Assembly (NCBI GenBank): GCA_947175535.1 | Contig: CAMWNF010000015.1 | Coordinates: forward strand, 1-32,714 | Length of the DNA: 32,714 nucleotides | Source of the DNA: an uncultured Bacteroidales bacterium | GTDB lineage: Bacteria; Bacteroidota; Bacteroidia; Bacteroidales; Muribaculaceae | Direction: 5' to 3' | In this document: in pieces, positions 10,572 through 29,579 of the stretch | Layout of the letters: each line of letters starts with the position of its first letter | Position numbering within the stretch: position 1 is the stretch's first letter | Made by a program: the position numbers and the translations under genes | Notes under the pieces: model-generated | What the model saw: the letters and a program-made list of their open reading frames with translations, nothing else | What the model was told of the DNA's origin: nothing | The model's database searches: none

Positions 10572-12611
10572 ATGAAAGCAAAATATCTTTTTATCGGTGT
10601 CCTTGCAGCTGTTGCCTTTACAGCCAGCGCGGAGGAACATCTCAAAAGCCTCAACCCGGCTTACTTCGACCCAGCCACACCCGCATCGGAAGATTTCTAT
10701 CTTCATGTCAACAAAGGCTGGATGGAAGCTAACCCCCTGACAGCCGAACATGCACGTTACGGTCAGTTTAACATCCTCAACGATTCGAGTGAAAACCGTG
10801 TCCGTGACATCGTGACAAATCTTGCCGCTTCCAATCCTCAGCCCGGAACAGTCGCATTCATGGTTTCGACCATCTATAATCAGGCACTCGACTCTGTACG
10901 CCGCAACCGCGAAGGTGCGAAACCCATTCTTGCCGACCTGAAGAAAATTGAAACCACTCCTCACGACGGCATGTATGACCTGCTGCTGTGGATGCATAAG
11001 AACTACAGTAACCCCTTCTTCAGCGCCGGTCCTTCGCCCGATCTCGCCAACAGCAATGAATACGCCATGTATCTCGGCGGTGCCGGTCTCGGCATGGGTG
11101 ACCGTGACTACTATCTGCTCAACGACAAGGAGAACAAGAAAGTGCGCGACGCTTATCAGAAACTTATCGTTAAGCAGATGATGAACGCAGGCTACTCTAA
11201 GAAAGACGCAAACCGCATATGCAAGAACGTCATGAAGATAGAGACCGCTATAGCAGATTCGACATGGACACGCGAGGAGAGCCGCAACATCCCGGCAATG
11301 TACAATCCCCGCACTATCGCTCAACTCAAAGAAGCATATCCCGCAACCGACTGGGATACTTACTTTGTCAAGACGATGGATATTGAGACTCCCGAATCTG
11401 TTATCGTGATGACTCCCAACACCGTTAAGCAGGGTATCGACCTGATGGCTTCACTCACCGACCGTGAAATCAAGGACTACTATCTATGGAAATATGTGTC
11501 ACAGGCTGCTGGCAAGCTCAGTGATGATTTCACTGACGCAAACTTCGAATTCAGCAAAGTTGTCAGCGGTGTTCAGCAGCAGCGTCCTCGTTGGAAACGT
11601 GCGCTCGGTGCTACAGAAGGTGCGCTTGGCGAAGCAATCGGTCAGCTTTATGTTGAAAAATATTTCCCCGAATCTTCGAAGGAATATATGCTTGGTCTCG
11701 TCGAAAATCTCCGTCGTGCTCTCGGCAAGCACATCATCAATCTCGAATGGATGAGCGACGACACCAAACTCAACGCTATCAAGAAACTCAATGCCTTCAC
11801 TGTAAAAATCGGCTATCCCGACAAATGGGAAGATTATTCGACTATGGTAATTGACCCCGAACTGTCTTATTACGAAAACATGCACAACGTCAGCATGTGG
11901 CATCAGGCTAAGGAACTCGCCAAATGGGGTAAGCCTGTCGACAAAACAGAATGGGGCATGACACCTCAGACAATCAACGCCTACTACAACCCGATGGCAA
12001 ACGAAATCGTGTTCCCCGCAGGTATTCTTCAGGCTCCGTTCTTTGACCCCGAAGCAAGCGACGCTGAAAATTACGGCGGTATCGGCGTAGTTATCGGTCA
12101 CGAAATGACTCACGGGTTCGATGACCAGGGCCGCAACTTCGACGCTGACGGTAACATGATTAATTGGTGGACAGCAGAAGACGCCGAGGCGTTCGCAAAG
12201 ATGACACAAGGTCTTATCGAGCAGTTCAATGCTGTCGAAGTGCTTCCCGGTCTCAACGCCAACGGTCAGTACACACTTGGCGAAAATATCGCTGACCAGG
12301 GAGGTCTCCGCATCGCCATGACCGCATTCCTTGACGCTCAGAAGCAGAAAGGCGTAGACATCACATCAGAAGAAGCCAAGATTGACGGTTATAATCCCTT
12401 GCAGGTGTTCTATATGAACTACGCCAACCTCTGGGCTAACAATATCCGTCCCGAAGAAATGCGTTCGCTCACTACAGGCGACGTTCACTCGCTCGGCAAA
12501 AACCGTGTGAATGTAACCCTGCGCAACATCGCTCCCTTCTTCAAGGCGTTCAATATCAAGGATGGTGACAAGATGTTCCGTCCGGAAGCAGAACGCGTCG
12601 TTATCTGGTAA
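10572..12611 (+). CDS. pepO: M13 family zinc metallopeptidase (PepO/neprilysin-like)
   Basis: 679 aa from the ATG at 10572 (MKAKYLFIGV), which gives a clean signal peptide ending around ASAEE (about 18-22). The open frame upstream to 10518 overlaps the intergenic hairpin. The zinc site HEMTH is at 510-514 (H510, E511, H514) followed by GFDDQGRNFD. The third zinc ligand is in GENIADQGG (E571 with D575). The NAYY substrate-binding motif (N469) precedes it, and the C-terminal 'NRVNVTLRN' and 'FRPEAERVVIW' ends are typical of M13. It is expected in the periplasm or at the surface, cleaving oligopeptides. It ends before a clear hairpin at 12635. Confidence 0.95.
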   Translation: MKAKYLFIGVLAAVAFTASAEEHLKSLNPAYFDPATPASEDFYLHVNKGWMEANPLTAEHARYGQFNILNDSSENRVRDIVTNLAASNPQPGTVAFMVSTIYNQALDSVRRNREGAKPILADLKKIETTPHDGMYDLLLWMHKNYSNPFFSAGPSPDLANSNEYAMYLGGAGLGMGDRDYYLLNDKENKKVRDAYQKLIVKQMMNAGYSKKDANRICKNVMKIETAIADSTWTREESRNIPAMYNPRTIAQLKEAYPATDWDTYFVKTMDIETPESVIVMTPNTVKQGIDLMASLTDREIKDYYLWKYVSQAAGKLSDDFTDANFEFSKVVSGVQQQRPRWKRALGATEGALGEAIGQLYVEKYFPESSKEYMLGLVENLRRALGKHIINLEWMSDDTKLNAIKKLNAFTVKIGYPDKWEDYSTMVIDPELSYYENMHNVSMWHQAKELAKWGKPVDKTEWGMTPQTINAYYNPMANEIVFPAGILQAPFFDPEASDAENYGGIGVVIGHEMTHGFDDQGRNFDADGNMINWWTAEDAEAFAKMTQGLIEQFNAVEVLPGLNANGQYTLGENIADQGGLRIAMTAFLDAQKQKGVDITSEEAKIDGYNPLQVFYMNYANLWANNIRPEEMRSLTTGDVHSLGKNRVNVTLRNIAPFFKAFNIKDGDKMFRPEAERVVIW

Positions 12612-12706: not shown

Positions 12707-12745
12707 CAACTTGCAAAAAAGTTGGGATTTTGAACTTAATTGAAC
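12707..12745 (+). promoter_or_regulatory. Inverted repeat and TTGAAC direct repeats upstream of the accessory operon
   Basis: CAACTT (12707-12712) faces AAGTTG (12719-12724), a 6-base inverted repeat. TTGAAC occurs at 12730-12735 and again at 12740-12745, 10 bases apart (about one helical turn). They lie upstream of the presumed promoter of the operon beginning at 12810, where an activator or repressor could bind. Short repeats in AT-rich DNA can be chance. Confidence 0.3.
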
Positions 12746-12778
12746 CAAGAAATTTTTTTATCACCAAAAGTTTTTGTA

Positions 12779-12786
12779 TACTTTTG
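12779..12786 (+). promoter_or_regulatory. -7 promoter element for the accessory operon
   Basis: TACTTTTG matches TAnnTTTG. The upstream -33 region is only a T-run (12753-12759). It sits 24 bases before the GTG at 12810, so it lies inside the longer open frame that starts at a TTG at 12774. This supports the GTG as the real start. Confidence 0.6.
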
Positions 12787-12809: not shown

Positions 12810-13727
12810 GTGAAGCCTTTTTTAGTTTTATCATTTGTATTTTGCTATTCAGCCTTTTTAGCCGGATGTTCTCAGGGTACCGTCGAGCCTGACGGACCTG
12901 ATGAACCAATGCCTAAACCTCCGGTAGTGCAACCTAAAGAAATTAAAATCAATCCCTCTGTCAGCGAATCGCGTGCCACCGATTACGGCTTTGAAACGGG
13001 TGATTGCATAGGTCTGTTCGTAGTGAATTATTCTGGAACAACACCCGGCAGCCTTGTTACGGCAGGTAATCATGTCGACAATATGCGTTTCACATATTCA
13101 GGAGAATGGACGCCGGATAAGCCTGTTTATTGGGAAGATAATACCACCAATGCCGACTTCTATCTTTATTATCCTTACGCTAACGTGCAGTCTGTAACTG
13201 CTTATCCCTTTGCGGTTAAAGCTAACCAGTCAACCGAAGCCGCTTATAAAGCATCGGATATGATGGTCGGCAAGTCAGTTAATGTGTCGCCGACCGAAAC
13301 CGCTGTCGTTATTCCCGCCAGTCATGTAATGAGCCGCGCGATTATCACTCTTGAAGCCGGTAACGGTTTCACAAAGGAATCATTGGCTAAATCTGCAATT
13401 TCAGTGAAGATAAACGGCGTGAAGTGTAATTCGACAGTCAATCTGTCAACAGGAGCGGTTACACCTACCGGAGAAGCTACGTCAGTGCTGCCTCTGTTTG
13501 CCGATGATTCTTATAAGGCTCTTATTGTGCCGCAAACTGTTGCGGATGGAAATCTAATTACAGTGACTGTTGACGGAGTCGACTTCAATCTTAATAAGAG
13601 TTTCACATTTGAGAGCGCGAAGAGTCATAAATTTACAATTGTGTTAAGCAAGACGTCGAGTGGAGTCAACGTCACCATAACACCTTGGTATGATGATGGC
13701 GTCGATTATGGCGGTACAGCCGAATAA
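12810..13727 (+). CDS. Fimbrillin family lipoprotein (Mfa-like)
   Basis: 305 aa from a GTG. No ATG precedes the lipobox; the frame is open from a TTG at 12774, but the -7 promoter lies there. The signal peptide ends FLAGC (Cys20) and a Pro-rich linker follows. The rest shows the fimbrillin pattern: 'SRATDYGFETGDCIGLFVVN', 'YWEDNTTNADFYLYYPY', a 'KASDMMVG' segment, 'IPASHVMSRAIITLE', 'ALIVPQTV' and a final 'ITPW'. It is a close relative of the N-terminus of the next protein and of the fimbrillin at 17268. It probably ends up on the outer membrane as a pilin-like or anchored subunit. First gene of an eight-gene operon. Confidence 0.85.
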   Translation: MKPFLVLSFVFCYSAFLAGCSQGTVEPDGPDEPMPKPPVVQPKEIKINPSVSESRATDYGFETGDCIGLFVVNYSGTTPGSLVTAGNHVDNMRFTYSGEWTPDKPVYWEDNTTNADFYLYYPYANVQSVTAYPFAVKANQSTEAAYKASDMMVGKSVNVSPTETAVVIPASHVMSRAIITLEAGNGFTKESLAKSAISVKINGVKCNSTVNLSTGAVTPTGEATSVLPLFADDSYKALIVPQTVADGNLITVTVDGVDFNLNKSFTFESAKSHKFTIVLSKTSSGVNVTITPWYDDGVDYGGTAE

Positions 13728-13767
13728 TATCAGTCTTTAAACCTTTTCACCATATATAATAATCAAT

Positions 13768-16700
13768 ATGAAATATTTCGTTTCGGTCGCTATCCTTTCA
13801 TCGCTATTGTTTTCCTCGTGTTCGGAGGAGGCTTTCGACGCCCCCGTTCAGGAGCCCGATGCTTCGGATGTGATTAATATTGAGGGACAGATTGTTCAGG
13901 AAGCTGTCACGCGAGCAAATGACGACGGTTTTGCCGACGGCGATAAAATCGGCATATATATCGTCGATTATGAGGGTACTCAGCCGGGGACACTTAAGAA
14001 TCAGGGAAACCGCGCTGACAACGTGCACCACACGTTTGATGAAACGACTTCTCGCTGGACACCCGCTTATAATATCTATTGGAAAGACAGGCATACACGG
14101 ATAGATGTTTTCGGTTATTATCCTATCGGCTCGCCTTCTGATGTAAACAACTATAAATTCACGGTTCTGACTAATCAGGCGCGAACTTATGACGACGGCA
14201 CGATGGGCGATTATGAGGCTTCGGACTTCTTATGGGGTAAGGTTGCAGGTGTCGAACCGACGCCGAATGCCATCAGAATTCCTTTTGCACACCGAATGGC
14301 TAATGCGCGAGTTACCCTCGTCGAAGGCTCGGGTTTCGACCCCGGAGAATGGAATGAGCTTGAAAAACAGGTATTGGTTACCAACACAATTCAAAATGCA
14401 GTTATCGACCTCGCTACAGGCTCTGTTACACCTGAAGGCGATGTCAGTACCAATTCTATTATCCCGACGAAGCGCGGAGATGAATGGCGAGCAATCGTTG
14501 TGCCGCAGACCGTCCCGTCGGGAACGACCATGTTCAATATCACTCTTGACGGCGTGTCCTACAAATTTTCAAAGAATGAAGAATGTAGCTATGTGTCCGG
14601 CAAGATGAACAATTTCTGCATCAAGATTGACCAGAAAGTGCAGAAAGGTGATTATACTTTGACTCTTATAAGTGAAAGCATTACGCCTTGGGAAAATGAC
14701 CTCGTAAGTCATGATGCTGTGTCTAAGGAATATATTGTCGTTAATTCCACTCCCGGAACACTCAAAGATGCCATTACCGCAGCCGGCAAAGACTATAAAA
14801 GTTTGAAAAATCTCAAAGTCACCGGCGAGATAGATGTACGAGATTTCTATTTTATGCGAGATGAGATGACACATTTGCAGGCCCTCAATCTGAAGGAGGT
14901 GAAAGTAAAAGCATACACTGATAATATTTATTTTCGTTATGAAGGTAAAGAAGACGAGATTCCCGTTGCGGCTTTTTTAGACAAACGCACTTTAACACGT
15001 TTCGTTTTTCCGGATAAACTACGGTCAATCGCATGCAGGGCGTTCGAAAACAGCAATATTTCTGGTTCGTTGGTTATACCTGAAGGCGTTATAGACATCC
15101 AATGGGCGGCATTTAAGAACTGTACTTCTCTAACCGGAACACTATCTCTTCCATCGACGCTAAAATATATTGCAAATTATAGTGATTTGGAAAGTTTTGA
15201 TGAGGAATTAGTTGGAAATGGAGAGACTTTTATGAATTGCGGATTCATAAGTGAAATCATCATTCCGGAAGGTGTAAGATACATTGGTTCAGCAGCTTTT
15301 TTAGGTTGCTCCGGAATATATGGTAATCTGGTTTTACCATCATCGCTAAAAACTCTTGGGGATAGGGCATTCAGTGGTTGTAAGAATCTAAACGGTTCAT
15401 TGAAAATCCCTCAAGGTGTATCTGTCCTTAGAACATTAGCTTTCAACGGTTGTGGTTTTAATGGTAACCTTACTCTACACGATGGAATATCTGAAATAGA
15501 AGCACACGCTTTTGGTTATTGTAAATTCAAAGGAGAACTTATACTTCCGAAAAATCTTGAGGTAATCCATGAAGGGGCATTTTATTATAATGACTTTTCG
15601 GGGGACTTAAAATTGCCGGAAACATTAATTTCAATAGGTGCGGGCGCATTTGGTCTTAATGGCAGATTGTCAGGAACTCTTAAGTTCGGCAATAATTTAT
15701 CGTCTATTGGTTCAGATGCTTTTAATAATTGTAGCAGTATTCAGAAACTTATTTTCTCGGAAAATATAGAAACTATCGGACAAAATGCATTTCAGAATTG
15801 TTTCGGAGTAGGAGCAATCATCTGCGAGAGTGAAATGCCACCTTATCTCTTACCCGGCGTGTTTGATGGCGTGGCTAAAGATAATTTTACTCTCGAAGTT
15901 CCGGAAACTGCGGTTGCTCAATATCAGACTGCTCCGGGTTGGAGCGATTTCAAACGCATTGCCGCTCATCATGAACTGGTATGCCGCCCGTCGGTTGCTT
16001 GTGCCCTTAGTACTGAACATAAGCAAACTCTCGTCATCGATGCAGAAGGCGAGTGGGAAGTAGCATCGATTCCTGATTGGTGTGAGCTGTCACAGACTTC
16101 AGGCAACAAGAAAACAGAAATCACTCTGACTATTAAAGCCGGTTCGACGACCGAGTCGCGCGAAGGTGATGTGGTTTTCCAACTAAAAGACAAAGATTAT
16201 ACTCACTCTTGCCATGTTTCTCAATACGGTTACCAATATGGCGAGGACGAGTTCCTTGCTTTGCAGACCGCGACAAAAGGCTCGCGTGGTGGTATTAACA
16301 TCGTTATCATGGGCGACGGTTATGATGCAAAACAGATTGCCGATGGCAGTTATCTCTCTGATATGAAGAAAGAGATGGAGTACTTCTTCGGGATAGAGCC
16401 ATACACGACCTATCGAGACTACTTCAATGTCTATACAGCCTTTCCAATCTCAACCGAGACCGGTGTAGGGACGGTTAATACCATTCGCTACAACAAGTTT
16501 AATACAATTTATGTAGGTGGGGTAGGTTTGAAATGTGATTATGATGAGGTGTTCAGCTATGCACTCGGAGCACCGACTGTTAACAGTTATAATCTCAATC
16601 AGACGCTTATAATTATAGTTCCGAATAGTACTGATTATGGAGGTATAACCCAGATGTGGGAAGACGGTTCGGCAATCGCTTTCTGTCCAAAGAGCGATTA

Positions 16701-17265
16701 TGGTTATCCTCTTGATTCAAGAGGTTTGATACAACATGAAGCAGGAGGTCACGGCTTCGGCAAACTTGCTGATGAATATATCTATCACAACGCCTTTATT
16801 GATTTCTGTGATTGTTCTGACGGCTGCGGTCATGCTGATGCTATAAATATCGGTAAATCATGGGGTTGGTATGATAATATTGAACTGACAGGCAAGATGC
16901 ATGAAGTCGGTTGGAGTCATCTTATATTCGATTCCCGATATAGCGATTTGGTCGATATATATGAAGGTGGATTTATGCATTCCCGCGGTGTTTTCCGCTC
17001 GGAACAAAACAGCTGTATGAACAACAATATACCTTATTTCAGCACTATAAGTCGTGAAAGTATAGTAAAACGTATAAAGCGATACGCTGGAGAAGATTTT
17101 GATTTCGAGGAGTTTGTGTCGCTTGATAAACGCACGGCGGATGTTGTTTCGCGAGCTCAGGATTGGTCTGCCGGCTGTGTGTCGTCGCGCTCTTTGCCTC
17201 CAGTCGTTCATAAAGGCAGTCCGCTTAAGTCAATTAAAAATCGTTCCAAAAAACTGGATAAATAA
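13768..17265 (+). CDS. Lipoprotein: fimbrillin-like + BspA-type LRR + BACON + M64 metallopeptidase
   Basis: 1165 aa. Signal peptide with lipobox FSSC (Cys18). About 35-315 is a fimbrillin-like domain with the same landmarks as its neighbours ('TRANDDGFADGDKIGIYIVD', 'YWKDRHTRIDVFGYYPIG', 'YEASDFLWGK', 'IVVPQTV', 'ITPW'). About 320-380 is the LKVTGEIDVRDFYFMRD lead-in typical of BspA proteins, then tandem roughly 23-residue LRR_5 repeats (about 400-730; 'LVIPEGV', 'AAFKNCTSLTG', 'LILPKNLEVIHEGAF'). About 740-822 resembles a BACON domain. About 825-1120 is an M64 (IgA peptidase-like) catalytic domain: 'INIVIMGDGYDAKQI', then HEAGGHGFGKLADEY (990-1004) and 'FRSEQNSCMNN' near 1076-1086. The zinc motif reads HExxxH, one residue longer than HExxH. 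A surface-exposed protease with an adhesive N-terminus is inferred. Confidence 0.88.
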   Translation: MKYFVSVAILSSLLFSSCSEEAFDAPVQEPDASDVINIEGQIVQEAVTRANDDGFADGDKIGIYIVDYEGTQPGTLKNQGNRADNVHHTFDETTSRWTPAYNIYWKDRHTRIDVFGYYPIGSPSDVNNYKFTVLTNQARTYDDGTMGDYEASDFLWGKVAGVEPTPNAIRIPFAHRMANARVTLVEGSGFDPGEWNELEKQVLVTNTIQNAVIDLATGSVTPEGDVSTNSIIPTKRGDEWRAIVVPQTVPSGTTMFNITLDGVSYKFSKNEECSYVSGKMNNFCIKIDQKVQKGDYTLTLISESITPWENDLVSHDAVSKEYIVVNSTPGTLKDAITAAGKDYKSLKNLKVTGEIDVRDFYFMRDEMTHLQALNLKEVKVKAYTDNIYFRYEGKEDEIPVAAFLDKRTLTRFVFPDKLRSIACRAFENSNISGSLVIPEGVIDIQWAAFKNCTSLTGTLSLPSTLKYIANYSDLESFDEELVGNGETFMNCGFISEIIIPEGVRYIGSAAFLGCSGIYGNLVLPSSLKTLGDRAFSGCKNLNGSLKIPQGVSVLRTLAFNGCGFNGNLTLHDGISEIEAHAFGYCKFKGELILPKNLEVIHEGAFYYNDFSGDLKLPETLISIGAGAFGLNGRLSGTLKFGNNLSSIGSDAFNNCSSIQKLIFSENIETIGQNAFQNCFGVGAIICESEMPPYLLPGVFDGVAKDNFTLEVPETAVAQYQTAPGWSDFKRIAAHHELVCRPSVACALSTEHKQTLVIDAEGEWEVASIPDWCELSQTSGNKKTEITLTIKAGSTTESREGDVVFQLKDKDYTHSCHVSQYGYQYGEDEFLALQTATKGSRGGINIVIMGDGYDAKQIADGSYLSDMKKEMEYFFGIEPYTTYRDYFNVYTAFPISTETGVGTVNTIRYNKFNTIYVGGVGLKCDYDEVFSYALGAPTVNSYNLNQTLIIIVPNSTDYGGITQMWEDGSAIAFCPKSDYGYPLDSRGLIQHEAGGHGFGKLADEYIYHNAFIDFCDCSDGCGHADAINIGKSWGWYDNIELTGKMHEVGWSHLIFDSRYSDLVDIYEGGFMHSRGVFRSEQNSCMNNNIPYFSTISRESIVKRIKRYAGEDFDFEEFVSLDKRTADVVSRAQDWSAGCVSSRSLPPVVHKGSPLKSIKNRSKKLDK

Positions 17266-17267
17266 AT

Positions 17268-18167
17268 ATGCAAGCAACGATGAAACACAATATTATATCT
17301 TTAATCGGCATCGTTATTTTAGCAGTCGGCTTAAATTCATGTTCTGAGGATGTTACCGCTCCTAACAACGAGAATTCCGAAGGTAAATTGGCAATGGAAT
17401 TCACGTTCAGCCATCCGTCTCAGTCACGAGCGACAGAGACAGCCTTTGAAAGCGGTGATATTGTGGGGCTTTTTGTCTCGGACGCCGAGACCCCGCTCGA
17501 AATATCCGGTAATACTGTGAATAACGAAAAAATAACATTCAACGGCTCGGCATGGAAAGCGTCAAGAACTTTGTATTGGAATGAAGGGCGGTATAACGTC
17601 TATGCTTACTACCCCCATCTTTCCGATATAACTTCAATCACTGATTTGCCATTTGAAATAAAGACCGACCAACGAGATAATGCGGAGGGAATGAGCGGTT
17701 ATGAAGCATCTGATTTTCTTTTTGCATCAGCAAAAAATGTTTCAGCTTCGGCAAGTCCCGTGGATCTTCAGTTCAGTCATATAATGAGTAAAATTACAGT
17801 CCGTCTCATTAAAGGCGAGGATTTCGAAGGTGAAATTCCAAATGACGCAACAGTTTATATTCATAATACTGTTACAGAATCGAGTATTGATTTGGCAGCC
17901 GGCGTTGTGACTAAAACACTGCACGGCACACGCAACACGGTTGTTGCGCGTCAGGTCAGTCCGACAAGTTATTCTGCCATTATTGTACCGCAGAGACTTG
18001 AAAATCGAGTCCCGTTTGTCGAAGTTGTCATGAACGGAGTTTCTTTTTTGTATGATAGTAAATTTCTGTTCAAGCCGGGTATCCATCATATAGTTAACTT
18101 TGTCATTGATAAGAATCCTGACCAGATTAAGATTGAAGTCGGAGGAGAAATCAAAGACTGGAATTAG
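17268..18167 (+). CDS. Fimbrillin family lipoprotein (Mfa-like)
   Basis: 299 aa from the ATG at 17268; the ATG at 17280 gives a more usual signal-peptide start (MKHNIISLIG). Lipobox LNSC precedes the Cys. Landmarks shared with the fimbrillin at 12810 and the N-terminus of the M64 protein: 'SRATETAFESGDIVGLFVS', 'LYWNEGRYNVYAYYPH', 'YEASDFLFA', 'LQFSHIMSKITVRL' and 'SAIIVPQRL'. It ends 'EIKDWN', unlike the 'ITPW' ending of the other two. It begins three bases after the M64 stop, so it is co-transcribed. Likely an outer-membrane-anchored fimbrial or adhesin subunit (inference). Confidence 0.83.
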   Translation: MQATMKHNIISLIGIVILAVGLNSCSEDVTAPNNENSEGKLAMEFTFSHPSQSRATETAFESGDIVGLFVSDAETPLEISGNTVNNEKITFNGSAWKASRTLYWNEGRYNVYAYYPHLSDITSITDLPFEIKTDQRDNAEGMSGYEASDFLFASAKNVSASASPVDLQFSHIMSKITVRLIKGEDFEGEIPNDATVYIHNTVTESSIDLAAGVVTKTLHGTRNTVVARQVSPTSYSAIIVPQRLENRVPFVEVVMNGVSFLYDSKFLFKPGIHHIVNFVIDKNPDQIKIEVGGEIKDWN

Positions 18168-18183
18168 TAATATGTTTATATAG

Positions 18184-19035
18184 ATGTTATTAAGGAGAAA
18201 ACGACTTAACATATCACTCATATTTCTTGCTCTGATACTTGGAGGGCTGGCGGTCTGGATTCACAGGCTGCCGCCTGTCGTTTTTGTGCCTGAGATGACT
18301 GACACTGTCGTGGAAAAGTCATCTGCTGACACCCTTGAGCTACCGGAGAACGTCCAGAACGCACCGGTTGCCACTGAGGATACGCTGCACGATGACTCCT
18401 TACATAAAAACGTGTCGTCAGATGAACAGACCGAACCTAAGGTAAGAAGCACTCGCTTTAAGGATATCGACATGCGGACTATCGCGACTGATAATCCGTT
18501 CAGAGCGGAAGCAATCAAGGTTATGAAGGGGCATCTTGAAGAGACGGATTCCGTGAGCCGTCACCGGATATTGAGCTATTGCGAACATTTGCGTACCTCT
18601 TATACCACCCGGGATATTGATTTTATCCGTCAGGTATTTAGTGAAAATGCCTTGATAATCGTCGGTCATGTGGTTAAATCCGGCTCAAATTCGCCTTCAA
18701 CCCTGAGTTATAGTCCGAAGGTTACATACAGTATCAGGTCAAAACAGGAATATCTCTCGAAACTTGCTAAAATATTCGCTTCAAATAAGAAGTTGGATGT
18801 CAAGTTTTCAGATTTTAAGATTTTGCGGCATCCGACTGTGCCGGGCATTTATGGTGTGACTCTGAGACAGAAATATGCGTGCGATACTTACAGCGACGAC
18901 GGTTATTTGTTCCTGCTGTGGGACTTCAGAGACCCGTCGATGCCTCTTATCCATGTCCGCACATGGCAGCCGTCGCAGTCAATCGAAATCGGAGGTGACG
19001 AGGTAATCGACATGAGTGATTTTAATTTCGAATAA
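18184..19035 (+). CDS. Membrane-anchored NTF2-like protein
   Basis: 283 aa. One N-terminal membrane segment (about 9-26, 'ISLIFLALILGGLAVWI') after a basic start, a Ser/Asp/Glu/Pro-rich linker to about 90, then a domain at about 105-280. Landmarks are 'RILSYCEHLRTSYTTRDIDF', 'VFSENALIIVG', 'SKQEYLSKLAKIF', 'YGVTLRQKYACDTYSDDGYL' and 'LWDFRDPSMPLIHVRTWQPS', which I recognise as the Bacteroidetes NTF2/SnoaL-like family. No enzymatic residues are claimed. It follows the fimbrillin by 16 bases and precedes an exported barrel-like protein by 7; its products would sit in the periplasm facing outward. Confidence 0.8.
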   Translation: MLLRRKRLNISLIFLALILGGLAVWIHRLPPVVFVPEMTDTVVEKSSADTLELPENVQNAPVATEDTLHDDSLHKNVSSDEQTEPKVRSTRFKDIDMRTIATDNPFRAEAIKVMKGHLEETDSVSRHRILSYCEHLRTSYTTRDIDFIRQVFSENALIIVGHVVKSGSNSPSTLSYSPKVTYSIRSKQEYLSKLAKIFASNKKLDVKFSDFKILRHPTVPGIYGVTLRQKYACDTYSDDGYLFLLWDFRDPSMPLIHVRTWQPSQSIEIGGDEVIDMSDFNFE

Positions 19036-19042
19036 TAAGCGG

Positions 19043-20026
19043 ATGATGGCAAAACGTAGTGTAGCATATTTCGTTTTTATGGCGGTGATGTTTTTTACCG
19101 CCATGCCGGACGCTTGCGCGCAACGATTTTCAGTAGCATCATTCCGCCCGTTGCCGAATGATGTTTCGGCATTCATAAATCCGGTCCGTGACCTCAACGA
19201 CGAGGATTGCGGTCTGATAAAGGTGATTGCGTCTGATGATTTTGTGTTTTCAACACCGTTAGGCATCGCCAAGCGGGACGATAAGGTCGGGGAAATATGG
19301 CTTTATTTGCCGAAAGGCTCTAAGAAAATGACTATAAAGCATTCCGAGTGGGGCGTGCTACGCGACTATGTGTTTCCGACTCGCATCGACAGTCATATGA
19401 CTTACGAATTGAGGATTGATGAACCTGACAGACCGCTCCAATCTCCGTCAGCTCAACCTATAATAACCACAGTCGTAGACACATTGGTTTTGACGCGTGT
19501 CGATACACTTATTGTAAAACCGGAGAAGCAGCCTGTTCCGTTTAACGCGGATATCGCCGCAACACTGAATTTCGGAGGAAAATCAAGCGTGGTTTCGGGA
19601 GGATTGTTATTAGTGGCTAATAAGCGTCACGGAGGTTTCGTACATATCATGACTGATTTCGGACGTATAGGTTCAACTATCGGGGAGTGTGGTAAACACG
19701 GAGAGATTAACGGTGCTGTCCCATATTACACTGGGCGTACACGACGTAGCTTTTTTATGGCTAACATAGGCTTATCCCATAGGTTAAGCCGTTTGCTGAC
19801 AATATTCGAGGGCGCAGGTTACTCCGGCACTTCGGTCGCATGGGAATTGGCGCACTCTGAAGGCGGCGGATATGTCAGGAACTCATATTATTGTAACAAA
19901 GGCGTTTCATTTGAAGCCGGAGCAATGTTGACGTTCAATAGGATTGTCGTTACGGCTGCTGTTATGACGCTTAAAGGGTCGGAATGGTTCGGCTCTGTAG
20001 GTATAGGTATAAGATTGGGAAAATAA
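19043..20026 (+). CDS. Exported protein with N-terminal PEGA-like region and barrel-like C-terminus
   Basis: 327 aa from the ATG at 19043. Earlier in-frame codons overlap the previous gene. The signal peptide ends DACAQ. About 30-130 resembles N-terminal regions of Bacteroidetes proteins with PEGA-like domains ('RDLNDEDCGLIKVIASDDFV' followed by 'GEIWLYLPKGSKKMTIKHSE'). A Thr/Pro/Asp-rich linker (about 140-165) leads to a Gly-rich, amphipathic C-terminus ('GGLLLVANKRHGG', 'FFMANIGLSHRLSRLLTIFE', 'GSVGIGIRLGK') that looks like an outer-membrane beta-barrel. It is 7 bases after the NTF2-like gene and 13 bases before the LRR gene. No function known. Confidence 0.72.
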   Translation: MMAKRSVAYFVFMAVMFFTAMPDACAQRFSVASFRPLPNDVSAFINPVRDLNDEDCGLIKVIASDDFVFSTPLGIAKRDDKVGEIWLYLPKGSKKMTIKHSEWGVLRDYVFPTRIDSHMTYELRIDEPDRPLQSPSAQPIITTVVDTLVLTRVDTLIVKPEKQPVPFNADIAATLNFGGKSSVVSGGLLLVANKRHGGFVHIMTDFGRIGSTIGECGKHGEINGAVPYYTGRTRRSFFMANIGLSHRLSRLLTIFEGAGYSGTSVAWELAHSEGGGYVRNSYYCNKGVSFEAGAMLTFNRIVVTAAVMTLKGSEWFGSVGIGIRLGK

Positions 20027-20039
20027 AAAACTATATAGT

Positions 20040-21689
20040 ATGTCAATCGACCGAATGTATTCCCATATTGTTACCATTATCTTTATAGCATCGCTGTGTT
20101 ATTTGGTCAGCTGTTCCGGTCCGGCTGAACCTGATAATTTCGAACCTATAATAGAACTCTTGCCTGCGACGGATATCACCCGGACGGAAGCTGTTATTTC
20201 AGTACGGGTTCTTACTCGCGGGTCCAATCTTACATATCTTTCATTTCACTATGGCGAAACAGAAAATACGGGTAAGACGATTCCGGTGGATGACCCCGAG
20301 ACTGAGTTTCAGACACTTCGTCTCGAAGGACTGAGACCCGGTGCTACATATTATTATTTTGTCGAAGGTGGCACGACAACCGCATCTTTGAGGTCGCAGA
20401 CCATGAGTTTTACTACATTCCCCAATGGGTTGCCTAAAGTTTCCGCTCTAATGCCATTGTCGACAGGACCTGTCGGAATTATCGTTTCATTTGATATAAC
20501 CGACGACGGAGGAGAGCAGCTATTGGATGGCGGTTGTGAAGTAAAGAATGCTGCGACCCTTGAGACCACTCGTATAAAACTTTCAGCCGAAGATCTCACA
20601 GTAGGTACGCACAGATTCCATATCGGAGGATTATCATTGCTTACAAGATATATCATTACACCTTTTGCCGCTAATTCGGCAGGTGAAACACAAGGCGAGC
20701 CTTTAGACTACACTACGCGTAATAGTGTTGTGCTTGATGAGGCGGGTAGTCTTGCTGAGCTTCTCGATTATGGAAAGGATTTGAAACTCGAACATCTGTC
20801 TGTGGCGGGTAATATGAATGGCGATGATTTCAGGTTTATAAGGCGGTTGCTGGGTGCACCGGCTCAGTCTGGCGAAGCAGCGATTGACAGTCGGGTTACA
20901 AGTGTGGATTTTTCCGATGTCAATATTGTAGAAGGCGGAGGCTCATACGACGGAAGCCGCTTTACAGTTGCTGACGAGCTGACAACCGGTATTTTTGCCG
21001 ATTGTAACAGGTTGCGCCATATTCAGTTGCCTATGACTGCAATAAAATTGGCTCGTGATGCTTTTGCAAATTGCTCATCATTAGTCAGATTAATCGTGCC
21101 TGCGGCGGTCAGAGAACTGTTGCCATCGGAAGGGTGTACGGCACTTGATGCGATAGAAGTTTCAGACGCCAATCCGAATTATACTTCTTTGGATGGAGTC
21201 CTGTTCAACAGTGAAGCGACTGAAATCTTATGGTTTCCTATTGCTAAGACAGGTGCATATTCACTTCCCGGAACAATTACATCAATAGGCGAAAATGCTT
21301 TCTACGGCACTAATATCTCAAGTCTTGACATACCCTCGTCGGTTACGTCTATAAGTCGTGGTGCTTTTGCCGGTTCGTCGCTCACGGAAATCTCGCTTCC
21401 CGATAATATTACGAATGTTTCAGAGGGTATGTTTCAGAACTGTAGCGCACTTTCTACGGTCCGACTGGGATATAATACTGAATATATAGGGAACTATGTA
21501 TTTGACGGAACGAGTATATGTAATCTGTATATCAGTGCACAGCTTCCTCCGTTTGCAGCAGAATCTGCGTTTGTAAATGGAACGGCTTCTATTACCGCGG
21601 ACTGCATTCTGTACGTGCCACGTGGTTGTAAGGCTGTATATCGTAATCATTCCAAGTGGGGACGCTTCGGTAAGATTGAAGAGTTCTAA
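20040..21689 (+). CDS. Lipoprotein with Fn3-like domains and BspA-type leucine-rich repeats
   Basis: 549 aa. Signal peptide with lipobox LVSC (Cys25); the ATG at 20055 is an alternative start. About 36-127 and 130-225 look like two Fn3-type domains ('TEAVISVRVLTRGSNLTYLS', 'LRPGATYYYFVEGG'). About 228-300 repeats the BspA-type lead-in ('LEHLSVAGNMNGDDFRFIRR'), which also occurs in the M64 protein at about 347-363. About 310-525 contains LRR_5 repeats ('AFANCSSLVRLIVPAAV', 'SLPGTITSIGENAFYGTNIS', 'SLDIPSSVTSISRGAFAGSS'). It ends in a BspA-like cap ('ILYVPRGCKAVYRNHSKWGR'). Probable surface-exposed adhesin or receptor; ligand unknown. Confidence 0.88.
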   Translation: MSIDRMYSHIVTIIFIASLCYLVSCSGPAEPDNFEPIIELLPATDITRTEAVISVRVLTRGSNLTYLSFHYGETENTGKTIPVDDPETEFQTLRLEGLRPGATYYYFVEGGTTTASLRSQTMSFTTFPNGLPKVSALMPLSTGPVGIIVSFDITDDGGEQLLDGGCEVKNAATLETTRIKLSAEDLTVGTHRFHIGGLSLLTRYIITPFAANSAGETQGEPLDYTTRNSVVLDEAGSLAELLDYGKDLKLEHLSVAGNMNGDDFRFIRRLLGAPAQSGEAAIDSRVTSVDFSDVNIVEGGGSYDGSRFTVADELTTGIFADCNRLRHIQLPMTAIKLARDAFANCSSLVRLIVPAAVRELLPSEGCTALDAIEVSDANPNYTSLDGVLFNSEATEILWFPIAKTGAYSLPGTITSIGENAFYGTNISSLDIPSSVTSISRGAFAGSSLTEISLPDNITNVSEGMFQNCSALSTVRLGYNTEYIGNYVFDGTSICNLYISAQLPPFAAESAFVNGTASITADCILYVPRGCKAVYRNHSKWGRFGKIEEF

Positions 21690-21703
21690 AAAATTATGTA
21701 TCC

Positions 21704-22633
21704 ATGAGTAAAACTCTTGAAGAAATAGATAATGACAATATGACCGAAGATATGTCCTCGGCATATCTCACAGAAGAAGACAAGGACGCACAGCTTGATT
21801 TCGGAGAATTGTTCACAAGCCGGTTTTCCAACATCAAGTTGATGTATAGCTCTCCGAGCGGACCGACGGAAATATATACGGCAACCCGCTATGGACGACG
21901 ATACATGCTCAAAGGTCTTAAAAAACAGTATCTCGATGACCCGATATACAATATGGGGCTGGTGAAGGAGTTTGAAATAGGCATATTGCTCGATCATCCG
22001 AATATAAGGCGGACGCTGAGTCTTGAAGTTGTGAGCGGTATCGGAAAAGTAATTGTTCTCGAGTATATAGACGGTAGCTCGCTGGAGTCTCTTATGAATG
22101 CAAGAGAGTTGTCATTATCTTCAGCAAGAACAATTGTCGGTCAGATAGCCGGTGCACTTTCCTACATTCATCGCAAGCAGATTTTTCACCGCGATATAAA
22201 ACCGTCAAATATTATAATCTCCCATCAGGGAAATGAGGTTAAGCTGATTGATTTTAATCTGTCAGACAGTGACGAGTTCATCATACTTAAAAATCCTGCC
22301 GGTTCGCGAAAATATATGGCACCCGAACAACTGACAGCATCCGCCCGACCCTCGGCTGCAACTGATATATACTCTCTGGGGGTATTGATGAACGAACTCG
22401 CATTGTTGACCGGGGATGAGCAGCTTGCACACTCTGCCATAAAATGCATGAACCATAATCCGTCCAAGCGTCCGGATGCAGTTTCAAAGATTAAATTTCC
22501 GGCAGCAAATCCGTCTTTTATGCAATCCCTCTCTGCTTTCATGGCTTCAAGGACGTTGACATACATAATGTTGGGCGTATGTCTGGTGTTGGCTGCCGTG
22601 ATAGTTGCGGGGCTTATTGATTATAACAGATAA
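21704..22633 (+). CDS. Tail-anchored Ser/Thr (Hanks-type) protein kinase
   Basis: 309 aa. No signal peptide; one membrane segment at about 285-304 leaves a 5-residue tail, so the kinase domain should be cytoplasmic. Kinase landmarks: Lys70 in 'RYMLKGLKK', acidic helix C 'VKEFEIGILLDHPNI' at about 87-101, catalytic loop HRDIKPSNI at 162-170 (Asp164), and 'YMAPEQL' at 204-210. The glycine-rich loop is degenerate ('SSPSGPTEIYTATRYG'). The DFG motif reads DFN (183-185). It is 14 bases after the LRR gene and 11 bases before the next gene. Phosphorylation of a partner in the same operon is inference. Confidence 0.9.
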   Translation: MSKTLEEIDNDNMTEDMSSAYLTEEDKDAQLDFGELFTSRFSNIKLMYSSPSGPTEIYTATRYGRRYMLKGLKKQYLDDPIYNMGLVKEFEIGILLDHPNIRRTLSLEVVSGIGKVIVLEYIDGSSLESLMNARELSLSSARTIVGQIAGALSYIHRKQIFHRDIKPSNIIISHQGNEVKLIDFNLSDSDEFIILKNPAGSRKYMAPEQLTASARPSAATDIYSLGVLMNELALLTGDEQLAHSAIKCMNHNPSKRPDAVSKIKFPAANPSFMQSLSAFMASRTLTYIMLGVCLVLAAVIVAGLIDYNR

Positions 22634-22644
22634 AAGAAAACCAT

Positions 22645-23220
22645 ATGGATAAGAATATAGCTTTGGAGACTCTCGTCGAAATCACCAATCAGAATCTCGG
22701 GTATGTGCCGACCACGCCTACTGAATTCCTCGATTTGACCGTAGAGATTGAAAGAAAGACAGGATATTCGATTAGTCTTTCGTCAATAAAACGAATCTGG
22801 GGTTATGTGAGATATGAAGGTTTTCCGTCGGTTACTACATTAAATAATCTGGCGCAATATAACGGTTTTAGAAATTGGGAGGCCTTTCTTAGTAGCAAGA
22901 CTTTTAACCGGCTCAGCGAAGATTCCGGTTTCTTTGAAGAATCTATTGTCAATCCCATTGATTTGAATCCCGGCGACCGTCTGATGCTTAGTTGGGGCAA
23001 AGACAAATCATGCGAGATTGAGTGTATCTTGCCTATGAGGTTTCGAGTAATAAGGGCTGAGAATATAAAACTGGAAGCCGGCGATATTTTCACACTGCAT
23101 ACGCTATGCCTGGGACATCCGATTTATATCAGTGATATCGTCCGCGGAGAAGTAAGACTACCTGCCTATATCGGTGCTAAAAAAGGCGGCCTAACATCAA
23201 TCACTCGTCGTCCTAATTAG
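22645..23220 (+). CDS. Unrecognised protein with helical N-terminus and beta-rich C-terminus
   Basis: 191 aa, no signal peptide or membrane segment. About 1-90 is helical with 'VEIERKTGYSISLSSIKRIW', 'YEGFPSVTTLNNLAQYNGF' and 'NWEAFL', a pattern I associate with Bacteroidetes HTH-like domains that accompany sensory or kinase genes. About 105-190 is beta-rich ('NPGDRLMLSWGKDKSCEIEC', 'KLEAGDIFTLHTLCLGHPIY'), possibly a small binding domain. It directly follows the kinase (11-base gap) and is the last gene of the operon, before the terminator. It could be a kinase substrate or a DNA-binding output; this is inference. Function unknown. Confidence 0.6.
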   Translation: MDKNIALETLVEITNQNLGYVPTTPTEFLDLTVEIERKTGYSISLSSIKRIWGYVRYEGFPSVTTLNNLAQYNGFRNWEAFLSSKTFNRLSEDSGFFEESIVNPIDLNPGDRLMLSWGKDKSCEIECILPMRFRVIRAENIKLEAGDIFTLHTLCLGHPIYISDIVRGEVRLPAYIGAKKGGLTSITRRPN

Positions 23221-23235
23221 CTAACCAATATCATG

Positions 23236-23278
23236 ATATAAAACAGGACTGAAGAATATCTTCAATCCTGTTTTATAT
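23236..23278. terminator. Shared terminator between converging operons
   Basis: ATATAAAACAGGACTGAAG pairs with CTTCAATCCTGTTTTATAT around loop AATAT (19 positions, one C.A mismatch). The T-run of the downstream arm and the A-run of the upstream arm suit both strands. It lies 15 bases after the stop at 23220 and 78 bases before the stop at 23357. This gap holds nothing else I can identify. Confidence 0.85.
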
Positions 23279-23356: not shown

Positions 23357-26074
23357 CTATTCTGAAGTCTCTCTTTCACGTACGGGACGCACGGCGTAAG
23401 CCCATGATTTACGCGCGCTTGAGATGGGGGTGATGGTTGAGTCATTGGCAAGGAGTATTTTCGCGTAGTTGCGTTCCTTTGAATGGTTCACCCCGGTACG
23501 ATAATAGACAGGACTACCGAGTGAAACTTTCCCGTCGTCAGGTCGGCGACCTCCGTTAGCTGGGAAAAAGATTGTCTCACCGCCTCTGTTAGCTTCGCAA
23601 TAGAATTCCCAACCGTTCTTATAGTCTCCTTTGACATTGAATTTGCTTCGGTTGGAGCTTGATGTGCCGGTGTCTGTAAAGCCGGTAAAGACATATTCGT
23701 CAGGCATGATGTAGCCCACCGGCGACGGGTCATAGATGGTCTTGGTTTCGGGATTCCAAAGATTGACATACATACCGTCCATAAATTCATTGAGACAGAA
23801 TGTCAGTGGATTGCGGATACAGGCGGCAATGCACTCAACGCCTTCATTATATTTTGATGCGGGCAAGTCGGTTGATACGAGCGCTCCGCTGTTTGCTTCC
23901 CACTGCTTATTGGAACTTACACCGATGCGTTCATAGGGCACCATCGGATCTTTGCGTCCGAACTGATACAATGGACAATTTCCGTCAATCGCTGAGGACG
24001 CACCATTCTGAGTTATGATAAATTCTTTTGACAGCCCGTCTTCGCCGTCCTGCGTGATTCTTACTTTGATGCGGCGCGACGAATATATAGCCGGATAGTG
24101 ACACCATCCGAGATTGTAGGGCATAAATGTTCGGTGTCTTCGTCCGAAGTTGCTGACGGCTTTGTCCCCGTTACCTGCGATATAGGGAGTTACCCATATA
24201 TGCCAGCTCCAAAGCACCACCTCTTTGCCGTCACGTGCGCCCAAAAGGGCAACGACTGCATTGCCCTGCTTGATATTTTCCGGTTTAACATTAAATGTTA
24301 ACCAACATGAATCGGTAGATACACGCGTTTCGGTGACGAGATAGTGACTGTCACGCCAGATAATTCTCGCACTTTTCGGTTTACAATCCTTATTCCGGTA
24401 GATAAAAGGATCTGTGATCGGATCACCTTGATGGTTGACAAACGTCGTAAGAATAGTATCGCCTTTTAGAGACGATTTGTATGCAGATGTATTCGTTAAT
24501 CCGTTTTTTATCGCATTGCCGTAGACGAGTGGAATGGTGTATGCTCCGGGAGCGTTGACGATATAACAGTTGGCGGTGTTGACTATGTCCGCAGCCCCTG
24601 TGGGATTTGAAAGGTTATATCGCGATGTATGGTTGAAATTGTTGTAGTTCGGTGTCGTTTTATTTATGACTGGAGTTGATTGGAGTGTTTCGTCAAAACT
24701 GAAGTCGAGAGTTTCATCTGCGACTTTGACAGAGCAATAGAATGTTTTCTGCTCCCCACCTGTGCCGGAGTCAGTGAATGAGCTTATCCAGTCAGGACGG
24801 GAGGGGAGAGGATTCCATTTCTTCGTTTTATCGTCATATTCCAGAAATTCTGCCTTCCACGAGTGAGGCAAGATTTTTGTTTCATCGCCTTCGCGAACAA
24901 CTGACGTGTAACTTGATACGGAGAAAGGTTTGCGGCCGCCGAGATGATCGAATTCGTCAGTGCCGTTCACGTCCAAAACACGATTAACACTTATCGACGA
25001 GGTGGAGATGCGATATTTTACAGTCGTGCCTCTCTGCCATACGCTTCCGCCAATATCGGCTTTGAGCACGCGGGGAGTTCCAGATATACTGTCGGTATAA
25101 TTGATTTCGAGTTGTGCGCCATCAGGCAGCGTCTGCGGGATCATGAAAAAAGTCTGGCTTGCCAGATTAATCATTTTTCCGGACGAGCCGTCGACCGGAC
25201 GATTGTAATTAAGAGAGAAATTTTTTATTTCGCTCGGAGTCCACGAGAGAGAAGACAGATTGCATTGTCCCTTACCGTAGACACCTCTTAGCGTGATCCT
25301 TGTAACGGTGCCGGGCAACATGTTGCTGCCTTGTACGATTTGAATGGCCGTCAGTCCATGCTGAAATTTCAATGTGGCTCCGTTAGCTCCACTACCGTCG
25401 ACCATCCCGCTGTAGCCTACATAAAGATCAGTTTGAGACGGGTTAGATGTCGGAATGGTGTAGGTGATATATGGTACGTCTTTTTTTGTTTTTGGCGACA
25501 TTTCGACTCCTGCCAGACCATGAGGGGCATAAGCGTAGAAGTGTATGCGAGTTCCTTCTCCGGGCCATGAATAGATTCGATCCGGAGTCCACACTCCGGT
25601 ATTGCCGTCAGGCTCGACGCGGGTATCATACATAGGCCAAGGCATGGAGTTTGCGACATTACCGTTCCCCGAAGCGTAAACATAGCTCGATACGCCAAAA
25701 GATTTGTGATCCTTGAGATTATGAACGAATGAACCTCTTGATGTCACAGACCTTTTATCGCCTGTAGAATCATTCCCAATAACCGGTAATACTTCAGTGT
25801 GGAGATATATCTGCATTTCTCCGTTATCAACTTTCATCGGACGTATACTTTCGGTCTGAATTATGGTGTCGCCAGATGATGAAAGCGATCTTCCGCCGCA
25901 GTCCGAGACCGACTCATTGCCGGTCTCTTTCCACATGCGGGCTGTAAAACAAATCGAATCACTTTTCGCCTGCAGCAGTCCGTCAGTCATCAGTCCGTCA
26001 TCGCAAGACGAAAAAATGACGAGAGACGCACTCACAGCGAGTGTGACAAAATATTTATTAAATTGAGTATGCAT
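23357..26074 (-). CDS. Large fimbrillin-like lipoprotein with FISUMP-like C-terminus
   Basis: 905 aa from the ATG at 26074; the open frame extends to a TTG at 26080, which I reject. Lipobox FSSC gives Cys24. The N-terminal half has fimbrillin landmarks ('RSVTSRGSF', 'VWTPDRIYSWPGEGTRIHFY', 'KFQHGLTAIQIV', 'FFMIPQTLPDGAQLEINYTD'). The middle is rich in beta-strand and Ser/Thr. The last roughly 150 residues ('GYIMPDEYVFTGFTDTGTSS', 'ETIFFPANGGRRPDDGKVSL', 'YYRTGVNHSKERNYAKILLA', 'AYAVRPVRE') resemble the FISUMP (Fibrobacter succinogenes major-protein) domain often at the C-terminus of Bacteroidetes surface proteins. It could be a tip subunit or adhesin of the fimbria. It follows the 26077 gene's stop by two bases. 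Confidence 0.82.
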   Translation of the reverse strand: MHTQFNKYFVTLAVSASLVIFSSCDDGLMTDGLLQAKSDSICFTARMWKETGNESVSDCGGRSLSSSGDTIIQTESIRPMKVDNGEMQIYLHTEVLPVIGNDSTGDKRSVTSRGSFVHNLKDHKSFGVSSYVYASGNGNVANSMPWPMYDTRVEPDGNTGVWTPDRIYSWPGEGTRIHFYAYAPHGLAGVEMSPKTKKDVPYITYTIPTSNPSQTDLYVGYSGMVDGSGANGATLKFQHGLTAIQIVQGSNMLPGTVTRITLRGVYGKGQCNLSSLSWTPSEIKNFSLNYNRPVDGSSGKMINLASQTFFMIPQTLPDGAQLEINYTDSISGTPRVLKADIGGSVWQRGTTVKYRISTSSISVNRVLDVNGTDEFDHLGGRKPFSVSSYTSVVREGDETKILPHSWKAEFLEYDDKTKKWNPLPSRPDWISSFTDSGTGGEQKTFYCSVKVADETLDFSFDETLQSTPVINKTTPNYNNFNHTSRYNLSNPTGAADIVNTANCYIVNAPGAYTIPLVYGNAIKNGLTNTSAYKSSLKGDTILTTFVNHQGDPITDPFIYRNKDCKPKSARIIWRDSHYLVTETRVSTDSCWLTFNVKPENIKQGNAVVALLGARDGKEVVLWSWHIWVTPYIAGNGDKAVSNFGRRHRTFMPYNLGWCHYPAIYSSRRIKVRITQDGEDGLSKEFIITQNGASSAIDGNCPLYQFGRKDPMVPYERIGVSSNKQWEANSGALVSTDLPASKYNEGVECIAACIRNPLTFCLNEFMDGMYVNLWNPETKTIYDPSPVGYIMPDEYVFTGFTDTGTSSSNRSKFNVKGDYKNGWEFYCEANRGGETIFFPANGGRRPDDGKVSLGSPVYYRTGVNHSKERNYAKILLANDSTITPISSARKSWAYAVRPVRERETSE

Positions 26075-26076
26075 TA

Positions 26077-27132: not shown

Positions 27133-27176
27133 GTTACGAATGTTTTAAATTTTTAATGATTAGTTATTTAGTTGTG

Positions 27177-29401: not shown

Positions 29402-29439
29402 GGTTTTCGTATAAAAATCGCGTGGATTAAATTTCGTTG

Positions 29440-29447
29440 CAAAATTA
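29440..29447 (-). promoter_or_regulatory. -7 promoter element for the fimbrial operon
   Basis: Minus-strand TAATTTTG matches TAnnTTTG. A minus-strand TTGG at 29471-29468 is a plausible -33 element, with a 20-base spacer. The -7 ends 38 bases before the DUF3575 ATG at 29401, giving a normal leader. Confidence 0.65.
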
Positions 29448-29479
29448 TTGAGAGTGGATATGACCAGCCAAGTTAGGGC

Positions 29480-29543: not shown

Positions 29544-29567
29544 GGGTTGGTTTTCGGTCATAAATAC

Positions 29568-29575
29568 TAATTTTG
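29568..29575 (+). promoter_or_regulatory. -7 promoter element for the TPR/HTH regulator
   Basis: TAATTTTG matches TAnnTTTG, with a possible -33 element TTGG at 29547-29550 (17-base spacer). It ends only four bases before the ATG at 29580, implying a very short or absent leader, unless a later start is used. Confidence 0.55.
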
Positions 29576-29579
29576 CGGC

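Follow-up and report, generated by a model that had tools for sequence, protein, structure and literature searches.

Why should a run of genes for surface proteins end in a Ser/Thr kinase and a protein that matches no family? The question is raised by an eight-gene operon (g1–g8, positions 12810–23220) in a stretch of 32,714 nucleotides from an uncultured Bacteroidales bacterium of the Muribaculaceae, referred to below as the window, which forms contig C15 of a draft genome (2.56 Mb, 91% complete). We consider it likely that this is a surface-structure operon carrying its own signalling and transcription module, switched by a dedicated kinase (g7) and a regulator (g8). The case is built on a conserved gene set, an operator upstream of g1 at a fixed distance from the -7 box, matches between g8 type and that distance and between g8 residues and half-site spelling, and the linkage of g8 to kinases, all computed here. 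The relatives that the window has in named collections are assemblies of Muribaculaceae and of other Bacteroidales.

An initial annotation of the same DNA had described eight same-strand genes with small gaps (2–40 bases), and the coordinates agree: all eight open reading frames (ORFs) lie on the + strand, separated by 40, 2, 16, 7, 13, 14 and 11 bases. It had left the last gene as unknown, which holds insofar as g8 matches no family, but it overlooked a probable DNA-binding regulator with an operator ahead of g1. With g8 as the probable regulator, the kinase is therefore best seen as half of a regulatory pair. The regulatory features are as follows.

12731–12746, + strand: operator, a direct repeat TGAACTTAATTGAACC of two half-sites with a 10-bp period
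12779–12786, + strand: -7 box TACTTTTG (TAnnTTTG), 32 bp 3' of the operator
21704–22633, + strand: g7, tail-anchored Ser/Thr kinase (C-terminal membrane anchor); Pkinase 1.9e-32, hydrophobic segment starting at residue 287 of 309
21758–21769, + strand: N-terminal S-x-[FY]-hydrophobic motif of g7 (SAYL, S19)
22645–23220, + strand: g8, predicted DNA-binding regulator (from its operator association); helical domain (1–91), disordered linker and beta domain, AlphaFold2 pLDDT 90.7
22777–22797, + strand: predicted recognition helix of g8, residues 45–51 (LSSIKRI), of which 46 and 49 track half-site spelling
22924–22935, + strand: linker motif SGFF of g8 (S94, F96)
23240–23278, + strand: hairpin after g8, probable terminator (80-base fold, z -6.4)

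A promoter element ahead of the operon and a strong hairpin after it had also been proposed, and the -7 box and the hairpin listed above answer to them; generic sigma70 and terminator scans of the locus were at background level and support neither.

An operator at a fixed distance from the g1 promoter

The direct repeat TGAACY-N4-TGAACY was seen by eye ahead of g1 in all 12 of the upstream regions read first, and TGAACYNNNTTGAACY has a single match in the window's own 2.56-Mb genome, the copy at 12731–12746. A search allowing at most one mismatch, with some latitude at the first and last base of the half-site, located the operator ahead of g1 in 31 of 33 loci. The number examined was 39, but six (L260, L263, L268, L276, L277 and L278) were not counted, as their g1 lies past the contig edge or the fetched stretch and they gave only a 30–35% cross-hit to another fimbrillin; L269 and L280 were scored as misses, and L244 lies at an edge. 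In one locus (L187:6146–6183) the operator occurs in two tandem copies upstream of g1, the lower at the usual 32 bp.

TANNTTTGY is given as the -7 consensus of these bacteria in an excerpt of PMC12632263. The distance from the operator to TAnnTTTG is either 32–33 or 22–23 bp, so that both place it on the same face of the helix, and an exact -7 box stands at one of these distances in 29 of the 31 operator loci, with a one-mismatch box in the other two (L037 and L215).

This geometry bears on the direction of control, which is not readable from sequence. Repressors released by phosphorylation are common, and g8 might be one that is freed by kinase signalling. The repeat, however, lies entirely upstream of the -7 box and in fixed helical phase (32–33 or 22–23 bp). 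Activators typically bind at such positions and steric repressors seldom do, and we therefore regard repression as unlikely.

g8 tracks both the spacing and the spelling of the repeat

The g8 proteins of these operons can be divided into type A (42–100% identity to g8 of the window) and type B (50–100% identity to g8 of Bacteroides acidifaciens). Spacing to the -7 box was 32–33 bp in all 18 loci with type A and 22–23 bp in all 10 with type B (Fisher 7.6e-8, although the loci are related and not independent); the comparison omits L215, L253 and L274, where g8 lies off the fetched stretch, and L269, which has no operator. One locus from the window's own family, L188, breaks with its relatives in both respects, having a type B g8 (median identity 55% to Prevotella/Bacteroides versus 27% to Muribaculaceae) and a spacing of 22, while by median identity all six of its surface genes are nearer to Muribaculaceae. 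In this locus the regulator appears to have been swapped jointly with the promoter.

The association extends beyond this operon. Among 84 g8-related loci (1012 kb) we counted 60 TAnnTTTG boxes that have, 15–50 bp upstream, an exact 6-mer repeated with a period of 10 bp, compared to a single such combination in 40 control loci (474 kb of kinase, NTF2 and M64 loci, in which no g8 was found among ORFs of at least 60 aa). A scan of repeat periods in the 300 bp upstream of 78 g8 genes also placed period 10 first, with 22 loci (shuffle mean 5.8, maximum 13; 40 shuffles).

Residues 45–51 of g8 form a helix in the AlphaFold2 model, and two of these residues follow the spelling of the half-site. GAAC occurs with S46 and K/R49 in 19/33 cases (1/43 elsewhere), GGAC with T46 and K49 in 6/14 (0/62 elsewhere), AGAC with E49 in 6/8 (0/68), AATGA with M49 in 3/6 (2/70) and TGAC with Q49 in 2/3 (2/73). 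Grouping relatives at 50% identity left 28 clusters, for which 15 of 20 class–spelling pairs agreed, a number reached in 0 of 20,000 shuffles (largest 14); the rule was derived from the data on which it was then counted and the loci are kin-related, so that P values are descriptive.

Composite sites were found in 15 of 149 genomes, and 14 of these 15 encode g8, compared to 72 of the 149 overall (p 1.7e-4). In the fifteenth genome, G160, where g8 was not found, the site lies near a contig end and the neighbouring gene resembles that of L076. Another TGAACC composite site, the second in genome G155, stands ahead of a g2-like gene (L230:9737; 34% identity), which is possibly a further target.

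The repeat might instead be the site of another, unlinked activator, with g8 a mere neighbour and both kinase and g8 acting elsewhere, for example in assembly of the surface structure. DNA binding by g8 is a prediction, some g8 loci have no recognisable repeat, and several composite sites lie in stretches without g8 (L229–L237, of which L236 has a kinase). Moreover L274 (Candidatus Bacteroides merdavium) retains g1–g6 and the operator, with no kinase or g8 within the 4.9 kb after g6 that the stretch covers. An unlinked activator would, however, leave unexplained why repeats stand beside many kinds of g8 gene and beside almost none of the g8-free controls, why spelling follows residues of one g8 helix, why spacing follows g8 type even in the exchanged locus L188, and why composite sites keep to genomes with g8 (14/15 versus 72/149, the odd one, in G160, being at a contig end). 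We think this alternative improbable, and take g8 as most likely the operon's own regulator.

A kinase linked to g8 by position and by motif

g7 matches Pkinase with 113.1 bits (curated cut-off 31.7) and has the catalytic motif HRDIKPSN. It gave no Pfam match to PASTA and terminates just past its membrane segment. A kinase lies within 700 bp of 43 of 61 g8 genes, and at 1.1–5.2 kb from 12 more, in 60 fetched stretches drawn mainly from the better-scoring g8 matches. The window's own genome holds a second kinase–g8 pair (contig C34), and in L039 the g8 gene beside a kinase (10728–11315) is split across two adjacent ORFs.

The two proteins also have a short motif in common. Of 73 aligned g8 proteins 60 retain S94 and 41 retain F96, while the surrounding linker is poorly conserved and is disordered in the model (pLDDT below 50 at residues 91–94); in a wider set of 26 g8 proteins, the window's included, all have S-[SGE]-F. 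The corresponding S-x-[FY]-hydrophobic motif is found N-terminal to the kinase domain in 41 of 56 kinases from g8 loci (shuffle mean 3.9, maximum 11; 1000 shuffles), one of 57 having been dropped as it has no catalytic pattern. Kinases from loci without g8 carry it in 2 of 31 cases (shuffle mean 1.8), a contrast that is suggestive only, because these controls are of a different subfamily with shorter N-terminal tails. In the wider set the motif is present in 15 of 26 kinases, and the other 11 have SSI, SCI, SGI, SGL or SGYT at a similar position. We infer that S-x-[FY] is a phosphosite or docking site common to kinase and g8.

Genomes of the window's genus contain many kinase-like genes, for which the literature, searched on limited terms, named no target. 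All 17 loci scanned from the genus (L016–L032) encode a kinase-like protein, about 260 aa long (RWTEIEHLPEWDEEFY and similar), that lacks the HxDxKxxN pattern.

Proposed mechanism and its difficulties

Taken together, these observations suggest a circuit. The products of g1–g6 would form or serve an envelope structure of three fimbrillin-like proteins, a leucine-rich repeat (LRR) lipoprotein, a predicted outer-membrane barrel and an inner-membrane NTF2-like protein. The state of the envelope would reach g7, perhaps via g4–g6, and the membrane-anchored kinase would control g8, most likely by phosphorylating or docking on the S-x-F motif of its flexible linker. g8, presumably cytoplasmic, would bind the tandem repeat, one helical turn in period, just upstream of the g1 promoter and recruit RNA polymerase there, activation being the most likely outcome. 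The operon would then yield more surface structure, and in Muribaculaceae more kinase and g8 as well.

We also lean, with less confidence, towards a more general reading, in which g8 represents a new family of Bacteroidales activators that bind one-turn tandem repeats, with residues 46 and 49 setting half-site spelling, type setting promoter distance, and the S-x-F motif pairing each regulator with a membrane-anchored Ser/Thr kinase. Members also occur outside Muribaculaceae: a sample of 247 genomes from the order gave matches in 59 (E 0.001), many of them to the N-terminal domain only, within longer proteins. In other families of the order this domain is fused into proteins of 426–845 aa (L302, L303, L305 and L306), two of them with weak AAA/NACHT matches, which fits what would be expected of a DNA-binding input domain.

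Besides the derivation of the residue–spelling rule from the data used to count it, the choice of control kinases and the missing pair in L274, a number of observations weigh against these proposals. Two loci, L269 and L280, have the operon without the operator, each with a shortened g1. When median bit score is used for L188, five rather than six surface genes lie closer to Muribaculaceae, as g4 favours Prevotella/Bacteroides, and the best single score for its g1 is with L265, on that same side. Period 12 also exceeds shuffles upstream of g8 (18/78 loci versus a mean of 6.0, maximum 10), as do periods 8 and 9 slightly (12 loci each versus 5.7 and 5.8); no common spelling was found among the period-12 repeats. 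A strict caller assigned a half-site to only 28 of 76 g8 proteins, and none of the spellings tested occurs as a repeat in eight loci whose g8 is of the VNK class. No kinase lies within 700 bp of 18 of the 61 g8 genes, and for six none was found in the fetched stretch. g7 itself has DFN where most kinases have DFG. Finally, g8 has no family in Pfam, NCBIfam or PADLOC, a Foldseek search of its model against the PDB gave no useful match (best E 0.09, TM 0.19), and a crude hhalign comparison with helix-turn-helix (HTH) proteins, using a three-sequence profile, gave nothing (1.6%).

These last searches, together with the lack of any match to Pfam HTH families (HTH_3 or other) in g8 or 11 relatives, led us to reject the idea that g8 is a plain XRE protein. 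An anti-phage defence system (PD-T4-6 and similar) was likewise rejected, as the kinase was the sole match among six proteins scanned; no PADLOC defence family was found in g2, g4, g5, g6 or g8, with g1 and g3 outside the scan.

In L280 (Prevotella) the g1 position is occupied by a 90-aa lipoprotein-like ORF (2192–2464) with a g1-like ending and no operator ahead.

Conservation and spread of the gene set

That the genes form one unit, to which the kinase belongs, had been suggested in the initial annotation, and neighbourhoods in other genomes, where a scattering of the genes would have spoken against it, keep them together. Among 297 genomes of the family, orthologues of g2 (71–100% identity) and full-length orthologues of g4 (48–100%) occur in the identical 15 (hypergeometric 1.5e-25, with identity cut-offs set after inspection, at the visible gap in each match list). 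All eight genes are kept in the same order and strand in 16 loci (the window, L036, L037, L076, L185, L189, L190, L191, L245, L246, L249, L251, L252, L258, L267 and L271), the remaining Muribaculaceae sets being interrupted by the ends of contigs or stretches. Both the operator and the co-inheritance of the gene set are well supported. In L076, a one-contig genome, an ORF for an IS4/5-family transposase (13126–13899) lies within the kinase gene while the rest of the operon is complete, making this a natural kinase knock-out.

A scan with g5 found the operon in named genomes of other genera, comprising Prevotella and Paraprevotella assemblies, Marseilla massiliensis An819, Bacteroides acidifaciens DSM 15896, B. 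faecalis, B. bouchesdurhonensis and Butyricimonas assemblies, with most proteins about 27–68% identical to those of the window. The mapping of the gene set covers 28 of 64 matched loci and omits those analysed earlier, a short piece (L279) and partial weak matches (L282–L301). The position of the kinase–g8 pair varies: g8 precedes the kinase in seven Prevotella, Paraprevotella and Marseilla loci (L259–L261 and L263–L266; g8 of L259, L263 and L265 by tblastn) and also in L188, from the window's own family, while in nine Bacteroides and Butyricimonas loci (L268–L270, L272, L273 and L275–L278) the pair lies downstream on the opposite strand. In L280 the kinase alone was noted downstream of g1–g6, on the opposite strand. 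A single eight-gene transcript is therefore not universal. B. acidifaciens DSM 15896 (L272), a type strain in culture, has the full set.

We also considered a five-gene core, g4–g8, with g1–g3 optional. This was rejected as an artefact of antisense ORFs at contig ends in L034 and L038, where tblastn showed that g3 is present and g1–g3 continue on other contigs.

The surface proteins

The domain assignments given previously are in line with the Pfam results, the NTF2-like match of g4 being weak. The six genes ahead of the kinase are as follows.

12810–13727, + strand: g1, fimbrillin-like lipoprotein with a GTG start; Mfa_like_1 E 1.9e-63, lipobox LAGC
13768–17265, + strand: g2, fimbrillin with BspA-type LRR, BACON and an M64-like domain containing HEAGGHGFGKLADEY; Pfam Mfa_like_1, LRR_5, BACON and Peptidase_M64, lipobox FSSC
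17268–18167, + strand: g3, fimbrillin-like protein; Mfa_like_1 E 5.2e-59, N-terminus hydrophobic, lipobox pattern unmatched
18184–19035, + strand: g4, N-terminal membrane anchor (hydrophobic segment from residue 8) and NTF2-like domain; Cds6_C E 1.7e-5, weak and under its cut-off
19043–20026, + strand: g5, exported protein, predicted outer-membrane barrel; AlphaFold2 model, pLDDT 77
20040–21689, + strand: g6, lipoprotein with BspA-type LRR; LRR_5 E 3.5e-31, lipobox LVSC

Mfa_like_1 scores in g1, g2 and g3 are 190–215 bits against a cut-off of 27, and lipoprotein signals are present on g1, g2 and g6. The NCBIfam models for FimD and Mfa1 gave g3 33.7 and 24.4 bits, under their cut-offs of 170 and 130. 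g5, like g8, matches no Pfam or NCBIfam family; in its model a disordered linker joins a beta domain at the N-terminus to eight long C-terminal strands, as expected for the predicted outer-membrane barrel.

A type V pilus tip subunit with an extra C-terminal domain is described in part of PMC12632263. By its sequence the layout of g2 appears tip-pilin-like, and the fimbrillin part of the operon may be said to resemble a type V pilus with such a tip subunit. The Peptidase_M64 domain of g2 scores 53.2 bits (cut-off 26) and matches PDB 3p1v in sequence (E 5e-8), but its zinc motif is HExxxH rather than HExxH in all 17 distinct orthologues, the window's included (HEAGGH in 16, HEAAGH in one). This extra residue, HEAGGHGFGKLADEY versus HEFGHSFGGLADEY in the alignment to 3p1v, makes peptidase activity of the domain doubtful.

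This bears on the idea put forward in the initial annotation, a surface adhesion and proteolysis operon, whose kinase might phosphorylate the proteins of surface assembly. Fimbrillin, LRR and M64-like domains are indeed present, and both the conserved unit and the place of the kinase within it have stood. The kinase would nevertheless be cytoplasmic if tail-anchored, while g1–g6 look exported or membrane-anchored; the motif common to kinase and g8, and the operator, point to control of transcription; and proteolysis is in doubt for the reason given. We regard this version as less probable still than an unlinked activator or a repressor. That the operon is a random run of surface genes kept together by recent common descent alone had nothing in its favour and is scarcely credible, given its presence in several Bacteroidales genera at about 27–68% identity for most proteins and the identical occurrence of g2 and g4 over 297 genomes.

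Parts of the operon recur elsewhere. In the related operons L209–L212 three g2-like proteins are encoded in tandem, together with a g3-like fimbrillin and one other gene, and by the pattern used HExxxH was found only in the middle g2-like copy; in L210 and L211 the adjoining genes look like a two-component pair (N-terminal sequence, by eye). g4-like NTF2 domains also occur in other operons, mostly with g5-like N-terminal domains, where they accompany kinases of another subfamily (L192, L193 and L203) or adjoin tubulin-like proteins named by eye (L195, L197 and L198).

Relation to known systems

Pairs of Hanks-type Ser/Thr kinases and partner transcription factors are known from AfsK–AfsR and PknH–EmbR, in which, as here, a membrane-associated kinase is encoded with or near a DNA-binding regulator, g8 being a predicted one. 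The present system differs in that g8 has no known regulator domain, the element is a tandem repeat of 10-bp period, and g7 is tail-anchored without PASTA. Two-component systems similarly place a sensor-side kinase and a DNA-binding regulator, again predicted in our case, beside their target, but g7 is of Ser/Thr type and Pfam found no histidine kinase or receiver domain in the eight proteins. The fimbrillin-like lipoproteins are shared with the type V pili of Bacteroidota (Mfa/Fim fimbriae); in contrast to those, the proteins fall under the FimD/Mfa1 NCBIfam cut-offs, g2 carries LRR, BACON and an M64-like domain, and g4–g8 are attached. With M64 (IgA peptidase-type) metallopeptidases (PDB 3p1v, 4df9 and 9ekk), g2 has in common a domain over the Pfam cut-off that matches 3p1v, and differs in a zinc motif one residue longer.

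A literature search on limited terms found no description of the system, the regulator family, the operator or the code, in line with the initial annotation, which had pointed to no described system of this composition. Since kinase–regulator pairs themselves are known elsewhere, the regulator family, operator and apparent code make up the part that, on that search, is unreported. If the proposals above are correct, g7 and g8 would be the Ser/Thr equivalent of a two-component system, with operators readable from sequence, so that kinase, regulator, operator and target genes could be predicted jointly. They would also open a way to study how Ser/Thr kinases serve a commensal in deploying a surface structure.

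Neighbouring genes

The next block of the window (23357–31286) is a fimbrillin operon on the - strand, with Mfa_like_1 twice, DUF5119 and DUF3575. Beyond it lies a gene for a 568-aa protein with a weak LuxR-type (GerE) match.

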